DNA of 35,526 nt from the NCBI GenBank assembly GCA_018645275.1, contig JABGOW010000254.1, positions 1-35,526 on the forward strand, written 5' to 3'. A program made the position numbers and the translations under genes. This DNA comes from Verrucomicrobiota bacterium (GTDB lineage Bacteria > Verrucomicrobiota > Kiritimatiellia > UBA8416). The notes beneath the pieces were generated by a model that made no database searches, was not told the DNA's origin, and saw only the letters and a list, made by a program, of their open reading frames with translations. This document shows, piece after piece, positions 396 through 27,361 of the stretch (its first letter is position 1; every line of letters begins with the position of its first letter).

Positions 396-1214
396 ATGTC
401 GATCTTGTTTGTGCCATATTTGCTGGTGTTTGGCCTGCTCTGTCTTGGGTGGATCGTACCTCTCGTTATTGGCATCGTGAGGAAGCGGCGGGAGTTGAGC
501 GGCGGACTGGTGCTCATCATTCTTGGCGGCATTTGGGCCGTTCCCGGCATTAGCATTGCCGGACTTGTCATCTTCGCTATCTGTCAGTTTGCATCGCATG
601 AACCGATTCAGACGCAGACTTTTGATGCGGCAGAGCTTGAGGGCGACAGTGGTATCATTCGTTTGGCGTTCGCTGGAGATGCAACCCTTGAGGTCAGCAC
701 CACCAACGAGAATGGGCGGCTTGCGCTCAACGGCAGCAATGGCGTCATTGCCGCGCCGCTGGGGGAACTGACTCCATATCGCTTTGTCGGCAGGCAGGCA
801 GGTGATGATGGAAGCTGGATGGTGTCAGCCTATCTCGGTGACCGTCACGGCAAAGCGCTTCTCGTGACGCCGGATGAACCGGTGGTGTTTGAGGTTGGCC
901 CTCCGTTAACCGCTCAGATTTCCATCAAACAGAAGGCGGATCGACAGATCAGCCTCGACTTTTATCTGAAAGGGAGTGGAGCGGAGCGCTACACGATTAG
1001 AGGGCCAAAACGGCGGGAAACACCCCGTTTTGAGGTCCGCGATGAAGCGGGTGAAATCGTTCTATCAGGCGCTTTTGCCTATGGCTGAGGCGGCACCTGC
1101 AGGTATTCCGGGAGAATACCAGAATCGGTAGGCGGCACGCTGGCGGTGATTCCCATCTTTGATAGCGGGCCCTTTGAGGTGACAACGATCGAATCGACTT
1201 TTGAAGTGAAGTAG
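396..1214 (+). CDS. Membrane protein; candidate selenoprotein with TGA(1086-1088) decoded as Sec (230 aa before the TGA, 41 aa after)
   Basis: ATG 396 with AGGGG 5 nt upstream; N-terminal TM helices; in-frame TGA then GGTCRYSGRIPESVGGTLAVIPIFDSGPFEVTTIESTFEVK to TAG 1212-1214; hairpin just after the TGA. If TGA is a true stop the CDS is 396..1088. Confidence 0.6.
1102..1120 (+). promoter_or_regulatory. Putative bacterial SECIS-like hairpin
   Basis: GGTATTC-CGGGA-GAATACC: perfect 7-bp stem, 5-nt loop with G at loop position 2; loop starts 20 nt after the TGA. Confidence 0.5.
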
Positions 1215-2094: not shown

Positions 2095-3315
2095 ATGAAG
2101 TGTACATCCATTTACTACCCATTGGTTCTGGCGGCTATGCTCCTTGCGGGGCGAGTGGCTCTTGCTGAAGATATTCGGATCGTGAAGTCCGGTAGCGGAG
2201 GAAAGATCTCGCTCTCGCTCCAGGGCATGCGCGTTGGCGGGGGACATGCCGAGAAGCAGTTCTACTCGGTTCTGGAGCAGGATCTCGTCCGCTCTGGCTG
2301 GTTTGCCATCGTCAACAAGCCGACTTCAACGGTCCAGGCTGGCGGCTCTTGCACGCAGGAGGGCGGACGGCTTGCGGCGGCGTGTGATGTTAGAAATGCA
2401 CAGACCGGCAAACGCTATGTCTCCCGAGTCTACACGGAAACGCCAACGCGAAGCCGGGAACTGGCCCATACGGTTGCTGACGCCATCGTTGAGGCTGTTA
2501 AGAAGGTTTCTGGAATCGCCTCGACGCGGATTGTTCTGATTGGGTCAAAGGCTGGGAAGAAGGATCTCTTCGTCTGCGGTGCTGATGGTGCCGACATGGT
2601 TCAGTTAACGCGAGATGGCGCGCCCTGCCTCTCCCCCACGTGGAGTCCAAGAGGTGACAGTCTGTTCTACACCTCATTTCATCGCGGCTTTCCGGATATC
2701 TACCAGGTTCGTCTCGCGACGGGTAAGCGCGCGCGCGTGGTGTCGTATCCGGGGATCAATGCTGGCGCAGATGTATCTCCCGATGGTAAATCGCTGGCAT
2801 TAGCGCTCTCAAAAGATGGCAATCCTGAGCTCTACGTGCGAGATCTTCGCTCGGGGAGACTCACGCGCCTGACCAAAACGAGGTTCGCGGCTGAGGCGAG
2901 TCCTTCCTGGTCTCCCGACGGGCGACAGATTGCATTTGTTTCGGATTCGACAGGGTCTCCGCACATCTATGTTGTCAGTAGCAGCGGCGGAAAGGCAAAA
3001 CGCATCACGTTCCGGGGAAATGAGAACGTCTCTCCGGATTGGGGGGCTGACGGGCGAATCGCGTATAGTAGCCGCCGCTCCGGGCGCTATCATATCTGTG
3101 TTCTTGATCCCAAAACGCGCATCGAGACGCAGATGACAGCTGAGCACGTCGATCATGAGAATCCCTCGTGGGCTCCGGACGGTCGGCATATTGCCTACAC
3201 GCGTACACAGGGCCACAGCTCCGATGTCTATGTCCTTGACACGCTGGGAGACGCTCAAGTACGTTTAACGCAGTTTCAGGGGGACTGGTATGCCCCATCG
3301 TGGAGCCCGCTGTAG
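2095..3315 (+). CDS. tolB: Tol-Pal system beta-propeller protein TolB
   Basis: Signal peptide MKCTSIYYPLVLAAMLLAGRVALA; repeated SPTWSPRGDSL / ASPSWSPDGRQIAFVS / NPSWAPDGRHIAYT propeller motifs. Confidence 0.93.
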   Translation: MKCTSIYYPLVLAAMLLAGRVALAEDIRIVKSGSGGKISLSLQGMRVGGGHAEKQFYSVLEQDLVRSGWFAIVNKPTSTVQAGGSCTQEGGRLAAACDVRNAQTGKRYVSRVYTETPTRSRELAHTVADAIVEAVKKVSGIASTRIVLIGSKAGKKDLFVCGADGADMVQLTRDGAPCLSPTWSPRGDSLFYTSFHRGFPDIYQVRLATGKRARVVSYPGINAGADVSPDGKSLALALSKDGNPELYVRDLRSGRLTRLTKTRFAAEASPSWSPDGRQIAFVSDSTGSPHIYVVSSSGGKAKRITFRGNENVSPDWGADGRIAYSSRRSGRYHICVLDPKTRIETQMTAEHVDHENPSWAPDGRHIAYTRTQGHSSDVYVLDTLGDAQVRLTQFQGDWYAPSWSPL

Positions 3316-3396
3316 GGGGTTGACCCAAGTCTCATAGTCGCGGGCTGAGGAATGGCCCATTCGTGGATTTTTATAAGTAGTTCCGAAGGAGATGTG

Positions 3397-3939
3397 ATGA
3401 ACAAGTTGATTGTAAGTGGTGTATGGAGTGTTGTTGTGTGTGGCCTGTTCGTCATGGGTGGCACGGGGTGTAAATCAGATGATGACGAACTGGGGCTGCT
3501 CGGTGATGATGATGTCCTGATTCCGATGGGCGTAGATGGCAGCGGTGGAGAGTACGAACTGGCGTCCCGTAGCGATACGCTGGGCGATGCAAATCGCGTC
3601 ACCGACGTCTCGTTTGAAAACGTCTCGTTCGCTTTTGACAGTTACCAGATTGCCGGTTCCGAACGCGGCAAGATCGAGAGGGTTGCGGACTACCTGGTTG
3701 GCAATCCACAGGTCACGGTTGTCGTTGACGGGCATGGTGATGAACGGGGTAGCCGTGAGTATAACCTCTCTTTGGGTGAGCATCGTGCGCTGGCCATTCG
3801 TGCCTATCTGATCTCACTGGGGGTAGCCGGAAATCGCGTGCAGACCCGCAGTTTTGGCGAAGAACAGCCGCTTGATCCAGGCCATGGCGAGTCTGCATGG
3901 CGTATGAATCGCCGCGGCGAATTCGCACTCTACCAGTAG
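3397..3939 (+). CDS. pal: Peptidoglycan-associated lipoprotein Pal (OmpA-like domain)
   Basis: Lipobox VMGGTGC; VSFAFDSYQI...VVVDGHGDERGSREYNLSLGEHRA OmpA-family motif. Confidence 0.93.
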   Translation: MNKLIVSGVWSVVVCGLFVMGGTGCKSDDDELGLLGDDDVLIPMGVDGSGGEYELASRSDTLGDANRVTDVSFENVSFAFDSYQIAGSERGKIERVADYLVGNPQVTVVVDGHGDERGSREYNLSLGEHRALAIRAYLISLGVAGNRVQTRSFGEEQPLDPGHGESAWRMNRRGEFALYQ

Positions 3940-21071: not shown

Positions 21072-21196
21072 ATCTGTAGGGAGCTGCGCTCGCGCTAGTA
21101 CGGAACCAACAGGCGTGAGCCAAACGTGCAGCTCGGTTTCTGAAACAAGGACACGGCAGCTCGGGTATGTCGTGTGATCTTGGGAAAGCAGGAAAG

Positions 21197-22783
21197 ATGA
21201 GAGCGAAGAGGCTGAAGCAGAGCAAATCCCTGATGGGGGGAGGGGATCCGGTTGCCGTCATTGAATTGGGGACGACCTCAATTCGTATGGTGATTGCTGA
21301 GATCACGCGGGGAGGGAAGTTCAGAGTTCTCGATACGCTTCAGCAGGTTGTTTCGCTTGGCCGGGACACGTTCACGGATGGTCAGATCGCGCGCTCGACC
21401 GTAGAGGCCTGCGTGGCTGCCTTGCGCAGCTTCCAGAAGGTGATGCGAGAGTACGGAATTGTCGAAGACCGCCACGTGCGTGCCATTGCAACGAGCGCGG
21501 TTCGAGAGGCGGAGAATCGCGATGCCCTTGTGGATCGTATTCAGATTGCAACCGGCATCCAGGTGGCGATCATTGACGAAGCCGAGATAAGCCGCCTTAC
21601 CTATCTTGCTGTCCGTCCCGTACTGATGCGACAGCCATTCTTCAAGAAATCGGACACGCTGGTCTTGGAGGTGGGTGGCGGTAGCACCGAGGCCCTGATG
21701 TTCAAGAAGGGCAAGGTCGGCAACTCGCATATGTATCGACTCGGTTCGCTGCGCTTGATGCAGATGCTTGGTGAATACAATGCGCCTCGTGCTCGAGCGG
21801 TGGGTATTCTGTCGAGCGCGACAGATTCGACGATAGACCAGATTTCTTCCAGTCTTCAGCCCGCCGGTAAATTGCACATGCTGGCGCTGGGCTCCGATAC
21901 ACGCTTTGCCGGTGCCATCCTGCATCCGGAGTGGGACAAGCAATCGCCCATTCGCCTCAAGGTCTCGGCCTTGGAGGTGTTGACCCACAAGCTCCTGCAG
22001 ATGACTACCGACGCGTTGGTGAAGCGATACAAGATGAGTTTCCAGGAAGCGGGTACCGTTGGCCCGGCGCTCCTGATCTACGTTCGGCTGGCACGAGCCC
22101 TCAAGCTTCGCCACATCCTGGTGGCAGAGGTTAATCTCCGCAGCGGATTGTTGGCGGAGATGGCGACCGGTGGTGCGTGGACCGCTGAATTCAAACGGCA
22201 AATTATGAATTCGGCCATTGCTGTCGGGCGTCACTATCATGTCGATTTGCGCCACGCCCGGCATGTTGCCTCCTATGCCCAGAAAATCTTCGACTATCTT
22301 CGGGAGGAGCATCGGTTGAACGCACGCGACGAGATGATTCTGGCGGTGGCATCTCTGCTGCATGAAAGTGGCCTCTATGTCAGCAATTCGTCGCACCACA
22401 AACACTCCTTCTACCTGATTCTCAATAGCGACATCTTTGGACTAGGATCCCGTGACCTCTTATTGGCTGCGCTTGTGGCCCGCTACCATCGTGGTGCAAC
22501 ACCACGACCGGGGCATGACCACTATGCTTCACTGCCGCGTGAGAGCCGACTGACGGTCAACAAGCTCTCGGCGATTCTACGCGTGGCGAATGCTCTGGAT
22601 CGAAATCATAGCGTGAGCGCGCTCGATATTGAGCTTCAATACACGGATGAGGGCGTTCGCATTGCTGTTCGTACGCGGACGGATATCACAATGGTCCAGC
22701 ACCGCGTGAATCAGCGGTCGGAGTTGTTTGAACAGGTGTACGGCACGCGTGTGGCTGTGTGCCAGCATAGAAAAGAGACGTAG
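21197..22783 (+). CDS. ppx: Ppx/GppA exopolyphosphatase family protein with C-terminal HD-like domain
   Basis: VAVIELGTTSIRMVIAEI, LVLEVGGGSTEALMF; C-terminal HDYASL-type region. Confidence 0.9.
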   Translation: MRAKRLKQSKSLMGGGDPVAVIELGTTSIRMVIAEITRGGKFRVLDTLQQVVSLGRDTFTDGQIARSTVEACVAALRSFQKVMREYGIVEDRHVRAIATSAVREAENRDALVDRIQIATGIQVAIIDEAEISRLTYLAVRPVLMRQPFFKKSDTLVLEVGGGSTEALMFKKGKVGNSHMYRLGSLRLMQMLGEYNAPRARAVGILSSATDSTIDQISSSLQPAGKLHMLALGSDTRFAGAILHPEWDKQSPIRLKVSALEVLTHKLLQMTTDALVKRYKMSFQEAGTVGPALLIYVRLARALKLRHILVAEVNLRSGLLAEMATGGAWTAEFKRQIMNSAIAVGRHYHVDLRHARHVASYAQKIFDYLREEHRLNARDEMILAVASLLHESGLYVSNSSHHKHSFYLILNSDIFGLGSRDLLLAALVARYHRGATPRPGHDHYASLPRESRLTVNKLSAILRVANALDRNHSVSALDIELQYTDEGVRIAVRTRTDITMVQHRVNQRSELFEQVYGTRVAVCQHRKET

Positions 22784-22786
22784 ACC

Positions 22787-24898
22787 ATGGCAAAGAAAGT
22801 AATACGTTACGTCAATCGAGAACTCAGTTGGCTGGAGTTCAACCAGCGCGTGTTGGATGAAGCCCAGGCACCCGACGTCCCTCTGCTCGAGCAGCTCCTT
22901 TTTCTCACCATTGTGGCTTCCAATCTGGACGAGTTCTACATGGTTCGTGTCGGCGGTCTCACGCTGATGGAGCAGGCAGGCATTACGACTCCTGATGTTG
23001 CGGAACTTAGCCCTGTAGAGCAGCTGAAGCGGATTCACAAGCGTGCGCGTCGTATGATCTGTGACATCTATGGCACCTACCGCCAGATGATTCCTGCCCT
23101 TGCGGAGCACGGTATTCGCCGCCTCCTGATTGCGGACCTCACGCCGCCCCAGATTGATGATATTGAATCGCGATTCCTGCAGACCCTCTTTCCGGTTGTG
23201 ACTCCCATGGCATTGCGCGTGGGGGAGTCCTTTCCAATGCTGTCGAACCTGGGGCTCTATATGATCGTGAAGCTGGCTCCTGAGCCGCGCAAACGGACTC
23301 CCCGCTATGCACTGGTTCCGCTTAGCAAGGGGCTTGATCGGCTGATGCCGATTGCGGTTGGCGATGGCGCACATCCTTACATCCTGGTGGAGGATGTGAT
23401 TCAGCACTTCGTGGGGCATCTGTTTCCCGGTCAGGAGGTCCTCGAAGCTGTGCCGTTTCGGGCAACGCGGAATGCGGATATGCAGGTGAAGGATGAATTT
23501 GCTGTCGATCTTGTCTCAGAGATGGAGAAGGTGCTTCGTCGCCGCAAGACCGGTGGCTGCGTTCGACTCGAGATCGATAAAGGCGCATCTAAGACCACGA
23601 CCGAGTTCCTCAGCAAGTTACTGCACGTCAAGGACGAGGCCGTGCTCAAAGTGGATGGCCCGTTGCATCTGACTGATTTCCGTGCCCTACTCGGCACGGA
23701 AGGGACAGAGCATCTACGCTACGAGACGTGGTTACCGCAGGGAAATGCGGATATTGATCCCTCCAAGAGCATCTTTTCTCAGATTGCGGCTCGCGACATC
23801 GCGCTGTCGCTTCCGTTTGAACGTTTCGACCCCATTGTGAAACTGGTTCAGGAAGCGGCGGATGATCCGGATGTGCTGGCGATCAAACAGGTGCTCTATC
23901 GCACCAGTTCCAATAGCCCCATCATCAAAGCTCTCCGCCGAGCAGCCGAGAACGGCAAGTCGGTCACGGTGCTGGTGGAGCTAAAGGCGCGTTTTGATGA
24001 GGCAAACAACATTGAGTGGGCGAGGCGGCTGGAGCGCAATGGTGTGCAGGTGATCTATGGAATCAAGGGCCTGAAGACGCACGCGAAGATCTGTCTTGTT
24101 GTACGGCGCGAGCCGGAGGGCGTTGTGCGCTACATGCACTTCGGGACGGGGAATTACAACGATAGTACTGCCAAGCTCTATACGGATGTGGGGTTGCTCA
24201 CGCGGAATCCCGACTTGGGAATGGATGCCTCCGCATTCTTCAATGCGGTCGGCGGCTATTCTGAACCCCAGCAGTATCTCAAGTTAGTTCAATCTCCCAT
24301 CAGCATGCTTGATACGCTTGTTGATCTTATCGACGGTGAGACAGAGCGGAAGCGCCAGGGCCACAAAGCACAGATCCTGGCCAAGATGAACTCACTTGTT
24401 GATCCTACTGTTATTGAGGCGCTCTATCGTGCGTCAGCCGCGGGAGTGGATGTCAGACTGAACGTGCGAGGGATTTGCTGTCTGCGACCCGGGGTGAAGG
24501 GGCTTAGCGAGAACATCAAGGTGATCAGTATCGTTGATCGCTTCCTTGAACACAGCCGGATCTTCTATTTCCTGCACGGTGGGGCCAAGAAGATGTATAT
24601 TTCGAGCGCGGACTGGATGCCGCGAAACTTGAAGCGTCGTATTGAGCTAATGGTTCCCGTTGAAGACACCCGCTGTCGCAAGAAGCTCATGCATGTTCTG
24701 AAAACCTGCATGAACGACTCGGTGAAGGGCCGGAGAATACAGCCGGATGGCGGACATCTGCTGCCCGCGGCCGAGGGCTCTCGCAAGGGCGGGAGGTCGC
24801 AGGAGAGTCTCTACCGCGGGGCCTGTGATGCCGCCGCTGAGGTGCGGCAGGCGAAACGCACGAAGTTTGAACCCCATCTTCCACCTGGTGCAGACTGA
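22787..24898 (+). CDS. ppk1: Polyphosphate kinase 1
   Basis: YVNRELSWLEFNQRVLDEA, GLKTHAKICLVVRRE, HFGTGNYND, RFLEHSRIFYF. Confidence 0.97.
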   Translation: MAKKVIRYVNRELSWLEFNQRVLDEAQAPDVPLLEQLLFLTIVASNLDEFYMVRVGGLTLMEQAGITTPDVAELSPVEQLKRIHKRARRMICDIYGTYRQMIPALAEHGIRRLLIADLTPPQIDDIESRFLQTLFPVVTPMALRVGESFPMLSNLGLYMIVKLAPEPRKRTPRYALVPLSKGLDRLMPIAVGDGAHPYILVEDVIQHFVGHLFPGQEVLEAVPFRATRNADMQVKDEFAVDLVSEMEKVLRRRKTGGCVRLEIDKGASKTTTEFLSKLLHVKDEAVLKVDGPLHLTDFRALLGTEGTEHLRYETWLPQGNADIDPSKSIFSQIAARDIALSLPFERFDPIVKLVQEAADDPDVLAIKQVLYRTSSNSPIIKALRRAAENGKSVTVLVELKARFDEANNIEWARRLERNGVQVIYGIKGLKTHAKICLVVRREPEGVVRYMHFGTGNYNDSTAKLYTDVGLLTRNPDLGMDASAFFNAVGGYSEPQQYLKLVQSPISMLDTLVDLIDGETERKRQGHKAQILAKMNSLVDPTVIEALYRASAAGVDVRLNVRGICCLRPGVKGLSENIKVISIVDRFLEHSRIFYFLHGGAKKMYISSADWMPRNLKRRIELMVPVEDTRCRKKLMHVLKTCMNDSVKGRRIQPDGGHLLPAAEGSRKGGRSQESLYRGACDAAAEVRQAKRTKFEPHLPPGAD

Positions 24899-24909
24899 TC
24901 AGACGGCCT

Positions 24910-25830
24910 ATGAGCGCTTCCCGAAAAGTACGGTTTGCAGGGGTTGTGTCGCCATCGGATAGCGCACTGATGGCGGCAAGTCAGATTCTCCAGCATGAAT
25001 ACGCGATCATGGCTTCATGCATCAAAGCCCTGACCAAGACACCCCGAAAGCGCAGCGTGGCTGTTCATGATTTGCGCGTTTCTGCGCGCCGCTTTCGCTC
25101 TGCTGCACGGCTTTTCAAGTCTCTGCTGCAGCCGAGCGACATCAAGGTTTTTACCGATACGCTCAAGTTGATGTCCGACCAGCTCAGTTCCGTTCGAGAC
25201 TGCGAGGTGTGGCTTGCGTTTCTGGACTCGGTTGTGCTCCCCGGCTCCGTGCGCGACGGCCGGGAATTCGGTGCACTCCACGATGCGGCCAAGGTCAGCT
25301 ACCGACAGAGCCGTGAGGATCTGAAAGCGTGCCTCTCCGGAGATGCTGTACAGAACCTCTTGAAGCTGGCTCCCAAGGTGATTGACAAGCAGATCCCCCG
25401 CCTCAAAGGCTCCGCACCGAAGTGTCAGGTGTCCCCGTTCGTAGCCAACCGACTCGTGAAGCCGCTGGGACTGCTTGAAGCGCCTATGCCGGGAATTTCC
25501 CAGATGAGCAGCACCGCGCTCCACACGCTACGCAAGTCAGTCCGGCAGCTCCGGTACTGGGCGGAGTTCTCGGAGCCCATTCTGGAGGGCCCCGTGGTGG
25601 CGCTCACGGTCCGCCTGAAAGAGGCCTCCGATGGGCTTGGGGCCGTACACGATATGGATGTTCACATGGAGTACGTCGACTCAGAGAATCCAGGGCTTTC
25701 CGACTTGTATGATGTCATGCTCCATCAACGAGAGCAGGGGCTTGAGCGGTTTCGAAAACGCTGGAAAGCGCTCTGCCGCAAATCATCACGCTGCCCGCTC
25801 AACGCATTTCTCAAGGATTGCGTCGGGTAG
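24910..25830 (+). CDS. CHAD domain protein
   Basis: VHDLRVSARRFRSAARLF and LHTLRKSVRQLRYWAEF conserved CHAD helices. Confidence 0.9.
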   Translation: MSASRKVRFAGVVSPSDSALMAASQILQHEYAIMASCIKALTKTPRKRSVAVHDLRVSARRFRSAARLFKSLLQPSDIKVFTDTLKLMSDQLSSVRDCEVWLAFLDSVVLPGSVRDGREFGALHDAAKVSYRQSREDLKACLSGDAVQNLLKLAPKVIDKQIPRLKGSAPKCQVSPFVANRLVKPLGLLEAPMPGISQMSSTALHTLRKSVRQLRYWAEFSEPILEGPVVALTVRLKEASDGLGAVHDMDVHMEYVDSENPGLSDLYDVMLHQREQGLERFRKRWKALCRKSSRCPLNAFLKDCVG

Positions 25831-25840
25831 ACGCATGTCT

Positions 25841-27361
25841 CTATAATGCGGCTTCGATGGCGTTGATGACGCTGTCGAGGACTTTGATGCGTGCAAACCA
25901 CTTGCAGTTTGATTCGACAACGGTCCACGGGGCGTAGGGGGTAGAGGTCCGCGCCAGCATTTCTTCAACGGCAGCGTAATAGGCGTCCCACTGCTTCCGG
26001 TTGCGCCAGTCCTCGTCGGTGATCTTCCATTGCTTGTGAGGTAGCTGCTCTCGTTCCTTGAAGCGGCGCAGCTGCTCATCCTGGTCAATCTGGAGCCAGA
26101 ACTTGCAGATCACTGCTCCGAAAGCGGCGATGTGTTGTTCCATTTCGTTTATCTCACGGTAGGCTCGCCTCCAATCACCCGGAGAACAGAATCCCTCCAC
26201 GCGCTCGACCAGCACACGGCCATACCAGGAGCGATCGAAGATGCTGATGTGCCCTGCCTTGGGGATTTCGTTCCAGAACCGCCAGAGATAGTGGTGTGCC
26301 TTTTCAATGTCGTTGGGGGCTGCAATCGGAACCACCTCATACCCCCGAGGGTCAAGCCGCTCGGTGAGGCGGCGGATGTTACCGCCCTTGCCGGCTGCGT
26401 CGCAGCCTTCGTAGACAATAACCACCGGCTTGCGCTGAACATAGATCTCGTGTTCCAGCTCGCGCAAACGCCGCTGCTGCTTCTTCAGGCGACTGCGGTA
26501 GTCCTCCCGCTCCAACTCCTGCATCAGGTCCACGTTGGCGAGAATGGAAACGTTGAGATCGGCTGCATTGCTGCCATCGGCTTTCCTATTGCGTGGCTTC
26601 TTCTCAGTAACCGCTTCGAGTTTCCGCTCGAGGGCCCCAATCACGGCCTTGAAGATCTTGAGTGATGCAAATCGACGATCTTCGGCTTCCACAATCGTCC
26701 ATGGCGCGAAGTCGGAGTCGGTTGCGGCCAGCATGGCTTCGGCGGCGTCGCGGTAGTCTCCATATTGTCGCTGTCGCTTCAGGTCTTCGTCAGTCACCCT
26801 CCATGCGGTTGAGGGATTGTTGCGTAGCTTCTCGAATCGCTTTTTCTGTTCCTTCTTGGAAATGTGCAGGAAGAACTTGAGTATGATATTGCCGTCGTCA
26901 GTGAGTTGTCGTTCGAACGAGACAATGTCACGCTCTGCGGCCGGCATGGCCTCGTCCTTGAGTTCCCCGTCGACGCGATCGTTCAGGAGACGGCGATACC
27001 AGCTGCGGTCGAAAATCGCGATGCGTCCACGAGCGGGTGTCTTGGTCCAGAATCGCCACAGGAATGGGCGCAGGCGCTCCTCGTCGTTTGGCGCGAGCGT
27101 GCTGTGGACGGAGAACCCACGTGGATCCAGAGGCATGATCAGACGGTTGATCAGCGTGCCTTTTCCGGCAGCGTCCCAGCCCTCGAATACCACGATGACG
27201 GGCACACCATGCTCAAGCAGGCTACGCTGCAGTGCCCCCAGCTTCATCCCAAGAGCGTCTTTCTCCTGCTTGTACTCTGACTTCTCAACCGTTCGCGACA
27301 GATCAATAGCTTCAAGCATTGCCCTCTCCTGTGTTGCACGCAGCATAGCTGCAAAGCGCAA
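25841..27361 (-). CDS. pap: Two-domain PPK2-family polyphosphate:AMP phosphotransferase
   Basis: Two PPK2 units: FEGWDAAGKGTLINRL...FDRSWYRR and YEGCDAAGKGGNIRRL...FDRSWYGR. Confidence 0.93.
   Translation of the reverse strand: MRFAAMLRATQERAMLEAIDLSRTVEKSEYKQEKDALGMKLGALQRSLLEHGVPVIVVFEGWDAAGKGTLINRLIMPLDPRGFSVHSTLAPNDEERLRPFLWRFWTKTPARGRIAIFDRSWYRRLLNDRVDGELKDEAMPAAERDIVSFERQLTDDGNIILKFFLHISKKEQKKRFEKLRNNPSTAWRVTDEDLKRQRQYGDYRDAAEAMLAATDSDFAPWTIVEAEDRRFASLKIFKAVIGALERKLEAVTEKKPRNRKADGSNAADLNVSILANVDLMQELEREDYRSRLKKQQRRLRELEHEIYVQRKPVVIVYEGCDAAGKGGNIRRLTERLDPRGYEVVPIAAPNDIEKAHHYLWRFWNEIPKAGHISIFDRSWYGRVLVERVEGFCSPGDWRRAYREINEMEQHIAAFGAVICKFWLQIDQDEQLRRFKEREQLPHKQWKITDEDWRNRKQWDAYYAAVEEMLARTSTPYAPWTVVESNCKWFARIKVLDSVINAIEAAL

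Follow-up and report, generated by a model that had tools for sequence, protein, structure and literature searches.

A probable selenocysteine codon within a Verrucomicrobiota gene that belongs to an apparently undescribed, multi-phylum protein family

The window analysed here is a 35,526-nucleotide stretch of DNA from a bacterium of the Verrucomicrobiota. Near its beginning, the forward strand carries a gene (396-1214) whose reading frame starts with an ATG at 396, encounters a TGA at 1086-1088 and then remains open until a TAG at 1212-1214. The intervening extension of 41 codons (1089-1211; GGTCRYSGRIPE...) includes a Cys codon four residues beyond the TGA (1098-1100), and a GTG located 4 nt after the TAG, at 1219, is the start of the next gene. 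This downstream gene encodes a TonB-C-terminal/TolA-like protein (PF13103) and is followed by genes for TolB-like, Pal/OmpA-like, TatA/B and TatC proteins. The in-frame TGA, the open extension and the short distance to the next gene had been pointed out in an earlier note on this DNA, and all are confirmed. The read-through product proposed there also stands, with the correction that it is 272 rather than 271 amino acids long; its residue 231 corresponds to the TGA. Elsewhere in the window, the intergenic segment 1930-2005, with CGACAAGCTCGGCATGACA and TCATCCTGAGCTTGTCGAAGGA, resembles a dispersed intergenic repeat, and inspection of translations by eye reveals an apparent polyphosphate cluster (Ppx-like, Ppk1-like, CHAD-like and PPK2-like) at 21167-27361.

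Within the coding sequence, just 3′ of the TGA, lies a hairpin (1102-1120) wherein GGTATTC (1102-1108) and GAATACC (1114-1120) form a stem of 7 bp that is closed by a CGGGA loop (1109-1113). The loop follows the TGA by 20 nt and carries G at its second position, exactly as previously described. Taken as a single sequence, this region would also be compatible with normal termination at the TGA, the extension then being a chance open frame or the remnant of a decayed longer gene. Other genes in the window terminate at TGA in the usual way, an open extension of 41 codons has a chance probability of about 14%, and the fold of a 56-nt segment is not unusually stable relative to shuffled sequences (z = 0.13). 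Because neither the extension nor the fold is exceptional, the argument presented below rests on the comparison of homologues, and covariation was used in place of stability as evidence for the hairpin.

When the product, with X in place of the TGA, was compared with 144 relatives, matches were recovered in other genera, nearly all of which carry a single internal TGA at the same codon (e.g. NFEYG-U-GGTCRYSGRVP, KFVFG-U-GGSLSYSGRIP and AFEFG-U-GGSCAYSWRVP). A profile search that is neutral between TGA and Cys was then applied to 346 genomes of the class and yielded 23 matches. One of these (G186, locus L042) was left out of the site count since its alignment stops short of the site, and 21 of the 22 matches that reach it have TGA there. 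The sole Cys match, in genome G124, uses TGT (FEFG-C-GGSCSAAW). The in-frame TGA is conserved, a Cys-containing homologue of the kind that the earlier note proposed to search for is present, and homologues do not simply end at its GAFAYG sequence. The 21 class members carry TGA, but never TAA or TAG, at this position, which argues against an ordinary stop codon.

To survey a broader range of organisms, the DNA pattern [FML]E[YF]G-U-GG[ST]C was scanned over 85,462 species, with about eight chance matches expected in the whole scan. The pattern occurs in at least 116 stretches, corresponding to at least 80 loci, and about 84 of the 88 sites among the matches listed are true members. Among the matches listed, nearly all of these belong to the PVC group or to phyla neighbouring it, with representatives in Planctomycetota, Verrucomicrobia, Lentisphaerae, Sumerlaeota, Hydrogenedentota, Omnitrophota, Riflebacteria, Armatimonadetes and Zipacnadia, whereas the chance matches fall in other groups. 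Five matches (L056, L057, L093, L105 and L109) were discarded as chance occurrences that have no family context or hairpin. Because the design of the pattern biases it towards TGA and UxxxC forms, ratios of Sec to Cys were taken from the profile search. An alignment of 90 members has G-U/C-G as its only invariant columns. Near-invariance is also seen for E (Sec-3), Cys (Sec+4) and Pro (Sec+11), which in the case of Cys is partly a product of the pattern design.

Planctomycetota carry further variants, such as NYG-U-GGGGWASV, that mostly retain the TGA. At loci L183-L194, L203 and L204 the forms UGGGGWASV, UGSQATGTW and UGGGAGASC keep the TGA in a divergent local sequence, and these probably represent additional subfamilies. 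In L186 and L190, GGC-U or CGT-U precedes the TGA and GGG follows it, such that the site is displaced from YG-U-GG. Many TGA-free Planctomycetota matches were rejected as Cys forms because their alignments end ahead of the Sec column, and three others (L196, L197 and L199) because other residues occupy that column. One Phycisphaerales genome (contig C22) has four tandem genes for the domain (L083:2179, 3695 and 6613; L170:417), one of which reads U-SGSSS and has neither the usual GG nor the second Cys. Two members (L078 and L102) reside on contigs titled as an Akkermansia muciniphila MAG, a name or bin that is doubtful since the protein sequences are close to those from G220, a distant member of the class.

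The extension itself behaves as protein-coding sequence, as had been proposed from its composition. Its 41 residues are conserved across distant genera and phyla, and dN/dS values of about 0.04-0.4 in five close pairs indicate purifying selection. An AlphaFold2 model built with 90 sequences has a mean pLDDT of 93.2, with the blocks of the extension mostly at 93-98, and the final strands of its beta sandwich, formed by residues 235-270, would be lost if translation stopped at 231. This conservation, the selection on the extension and its role in completing the fold weigh so heavily against an ordinary stop, whether with a chance frame or a decayed gene downstream, that we consider it very improbable.

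The protein is also predicted to have transmembrane helices at residues 5-31 and 37-66 ahead of the beta-sandwich domains, which suggests that it is anchored in the membrane and exposes these domains on the outside. In many relatives a signal-like segment takes the place of the two helices, and some are extended by a part of about 280-300 residues that, by eye, is apparently transmembrane; the model of one long relative (L100; pLDDT 89) is likewise beta-rich. Foldseek returned DUF3823, macroglobulin and Ig proteins with low TM-scores (up to 0.33), matches that carry no information on activity, and the PDB holds no sequence relative. From the model, the C-terminal domain appears to be Ig/macroglobulin-like rather than thioredoxin-like. 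A thioredoxin-fold selenoprotein with a UxxC or CxxU motif was considered and rejected on account of the beta-sandwich model and the UxxxC motif.

Evidence for the hairpin as an RNA structure comes from 94 sequences that align gap-free from the TGA to +45. RNAalifold, with no structure imposed, places a stem at columns 19-23/29-33 in which all five pairs are compensated. For a 6-pair version of this stem, 95.2% of cells are paired, compared with 77.7 ± 0.9% in shuffled alignments and at most 66.5% when the stem is slid; both sides have changed in 91 cells versus 21.5 ± 4.1 on shuffling, with compensation at 6/6 pairs. The encoded amino acids change together with the stem: YSWRV is specified by TACTC..GAGTA, LSWRE by CTCTC..GAGAG, HTWRV by CACAC..GTGTG, LRWPE by CTCCG..CGGAG and YLGQI by TATCT..AGATA. 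In the Cys homologue (G124), the stem is disrupted. Bacterial SECIS (bSECIS) elements are modelled with a 3-9 nt loop, a 4-16 bp stem and G in the first two loop positions, at 16-37 nt from the UGA (PMC13188914), and the hairpin in the window, with its 7 bp, 5-nt CGGGA loop and 20-nt spacing, has this geometry. In a subgroup with ATGGC loops, the G comes third in the loop, except when an A-C mismatch is counted as the closing pair. Further copies of the element in the same genome were sought with a pattern of overly rigid spacing, which matched none.

A structured 3′ element beside a TGA could also promote read-through of an ordinary stop by a near-cognate tRNA, with no selenocysteine being inserted. 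The distribution of the selenocysteine machinery argues strongly against this. The genome from which the window derives carries selA, selB, selC (tRNA-Sec) and selD together on one contig (C527), thereby answering the question raised in the earlier note of whether all four are present. Within the class, SelB occurs in 13/14 genomes with the TGA form compared with 15/332 others (p = 4e-15), and the genome with the Cys form lacks it. For Planctomycetota the corresponding values are 52/60 and 182/330 (p = 1e-6), with 14/14 for strong matches; both p-values are optimistic because genomes are treated as independent despite their shared ancestry. SelB was not detected in one TGA-form class genome (G048) or in 8/60 from Planctomycetota, which probably reflects incomplete MAGs or weaker matches. 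Among genomes with pattern matches, tRNA-Sec is found in 41/45 that have true members and in 1/5 (with a marginal score) that have chance matches.

Physical linkage points in the same direction: SelB adjoins family members in at least seven loci (L051, L053, L054, L081, L094, L099 and L123), and SelA or SelD does so in some. Together with the Cys aligned at the site in the clearest non-TGA homologue and the fit of the hairpin to published SECIS geometry, this co-occurrence and linkage make near-cognate read-through highly implausible. At L081, adjacent to selA and selB, the SelD frame (2225-3829, minus strand) seems to run on into a C-terminal domain that resembles AhpD (residues 456-521), and the gene is possibly a SelD-AhpD fusion.

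The recoding site, the coding extension, the covarying SECIS and the association with sel genes, both by co-occurrence and by linkage, lead us to conclude from sequence comparison that the TGA at 1086-1088 is almost certainly decoded as selenocysteine. That this decoding occurs in a member of a new selenoprotein family is very nearly as secure. The earlier proposal of an undescribed selenoprotein candidate is thus upheld, with the gene now seen as one member of a multi-phylum family. In the proposed mechanism, the stem-loop 20 nt downstream of the UGA would direct SelB and tRNA-Sec to insert selenocysteine, and translation would terminate at the TAG to give the 272-aa selenoprotein. Two N-terminal helices would anchor the product with its beta-sandwich domains outside the cytoplasm, where Sec231 is predicted to occupy an interstrand loop (G-U-G-G-T-C) of the C-terminal domain, usually with Cys four residues on. 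Current annotation presumably truncates the gene at the Sec codon and loses part of the Ig-like domain.

The chemistry performed by this residue can be addressed with less assurance. Among 59 loci of relatives, recurrent neighbours encode carboxypeptidase-regulatory-like large beta proteins (12 loci), NapH/MauN-like 4Fe-4S proteins (11), 2-hydroxyacyl-CoA-dehydratase-type proteins (7) and a methyltransferase (6); one of the dehydratase-type proteins (L084) scores above the threshold set for the double-cubane reductase model. Because UxxxC is present in most members and ferredoxin-type neighbours would suit electron transfer, we favour a selenol/thiol redox centre outside the cytoplasm, for which NapH-like ferredoxins may act as partners, although our confidence in this role falls somewhat short of even. 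The redox-type Sec/Cys pair suggested earlier applies to most members, but the second Cys is missing in 5/21 class members, so a UxxxC selenenylsulfide is not universal and metal binding or a lone selenol must be considered. A selenoprotein in which Sec has a structural role or coordinates a soft metal or organometal, without redox cycling, is nearly as credible as the redox centre. The missing partner Cys, the Ig-like rather than thioredoxin fold, and the NapH-like ferredoxin, double-cubane reductase and methyltransferase neighbours, as also encountered in other Sec-rich systems whose chemistry is poorly understood, are all consistent with such a role.

A broader reading, of similar likelihood, is that the family represents a hitherto unseen class of extracytoplasmic Ig-like selenoprotein domain whose protein sequence evolves so as to preserve the hairpin. 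Domains of this class would be widespread among PVC bacteria and adjacent phyla and would work in a Sec-dependent envelope system together with NapH-like ferredoxins, a double-cubane reductase and a methyltransferase. The genetically linked neighbours offer a handle on Sec use in planctomycete envelopes. The family adds a large, probably extracytoplasmic group with a predicted non-thioredoxin fold to phyla whose selenoproteins are apparently little described. The SECIS illustrates clearly how an RNA structure can constrain the protein encoded across it (S/R changes jointly to L/Q or R/P) and can be used to calibrate SECIS predictors.

No family matching the selenoprotein was found in Pfam or NCBIfam (June 2026), and there is no matching entry among the 119 prokaryotic selenoprotein families catalogued in 2026 (PMC13188914) or in deep-Sep (PMC12013277). 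The family is thus apparently undescribed in the open-access PMC literature. The short string G-U-x-G is shared with hypothetical protein DG (ribbon_DG_selen; NF049953, motif GUxG), a family found in desulfobacteria whose model matches neither the window gene nor its relatives. The macroglobulin domain PF01835 (MG2), likewise a predicted beta sandwich, overlaps the Sec domain in 3/5 long members below threshold (best E = 4e-4; 21.2 bits versus a gathering cut-off of 32.8), and the window protein is unmatched. The best Foldseek matches to the two-domain beta-sandwich part, the DUF3823 structures 4fxt and 4yok, are not selenoproteins and reach a TM-score of about 0.3 at 10-12% identity. SAO/Tso selenoprotein operons (PMC13188914) resemble these loci in that selenoproteins occur in conserved clusters, which for the present family include electron-transfer and methyltransferase genes; by NCBIfam, none of the listed SAO/Tso selenoproteins matches the family proteins. 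With known bSECIS selenoprotein genes such as fdhF (PMC13188914), the gene shares an in-frame UGA, a stem-loop in the coding region and SelA/B/C/D, but the protein is unrelated, the Sec here lying in GUGG[ST]C within an Ig-like domain.
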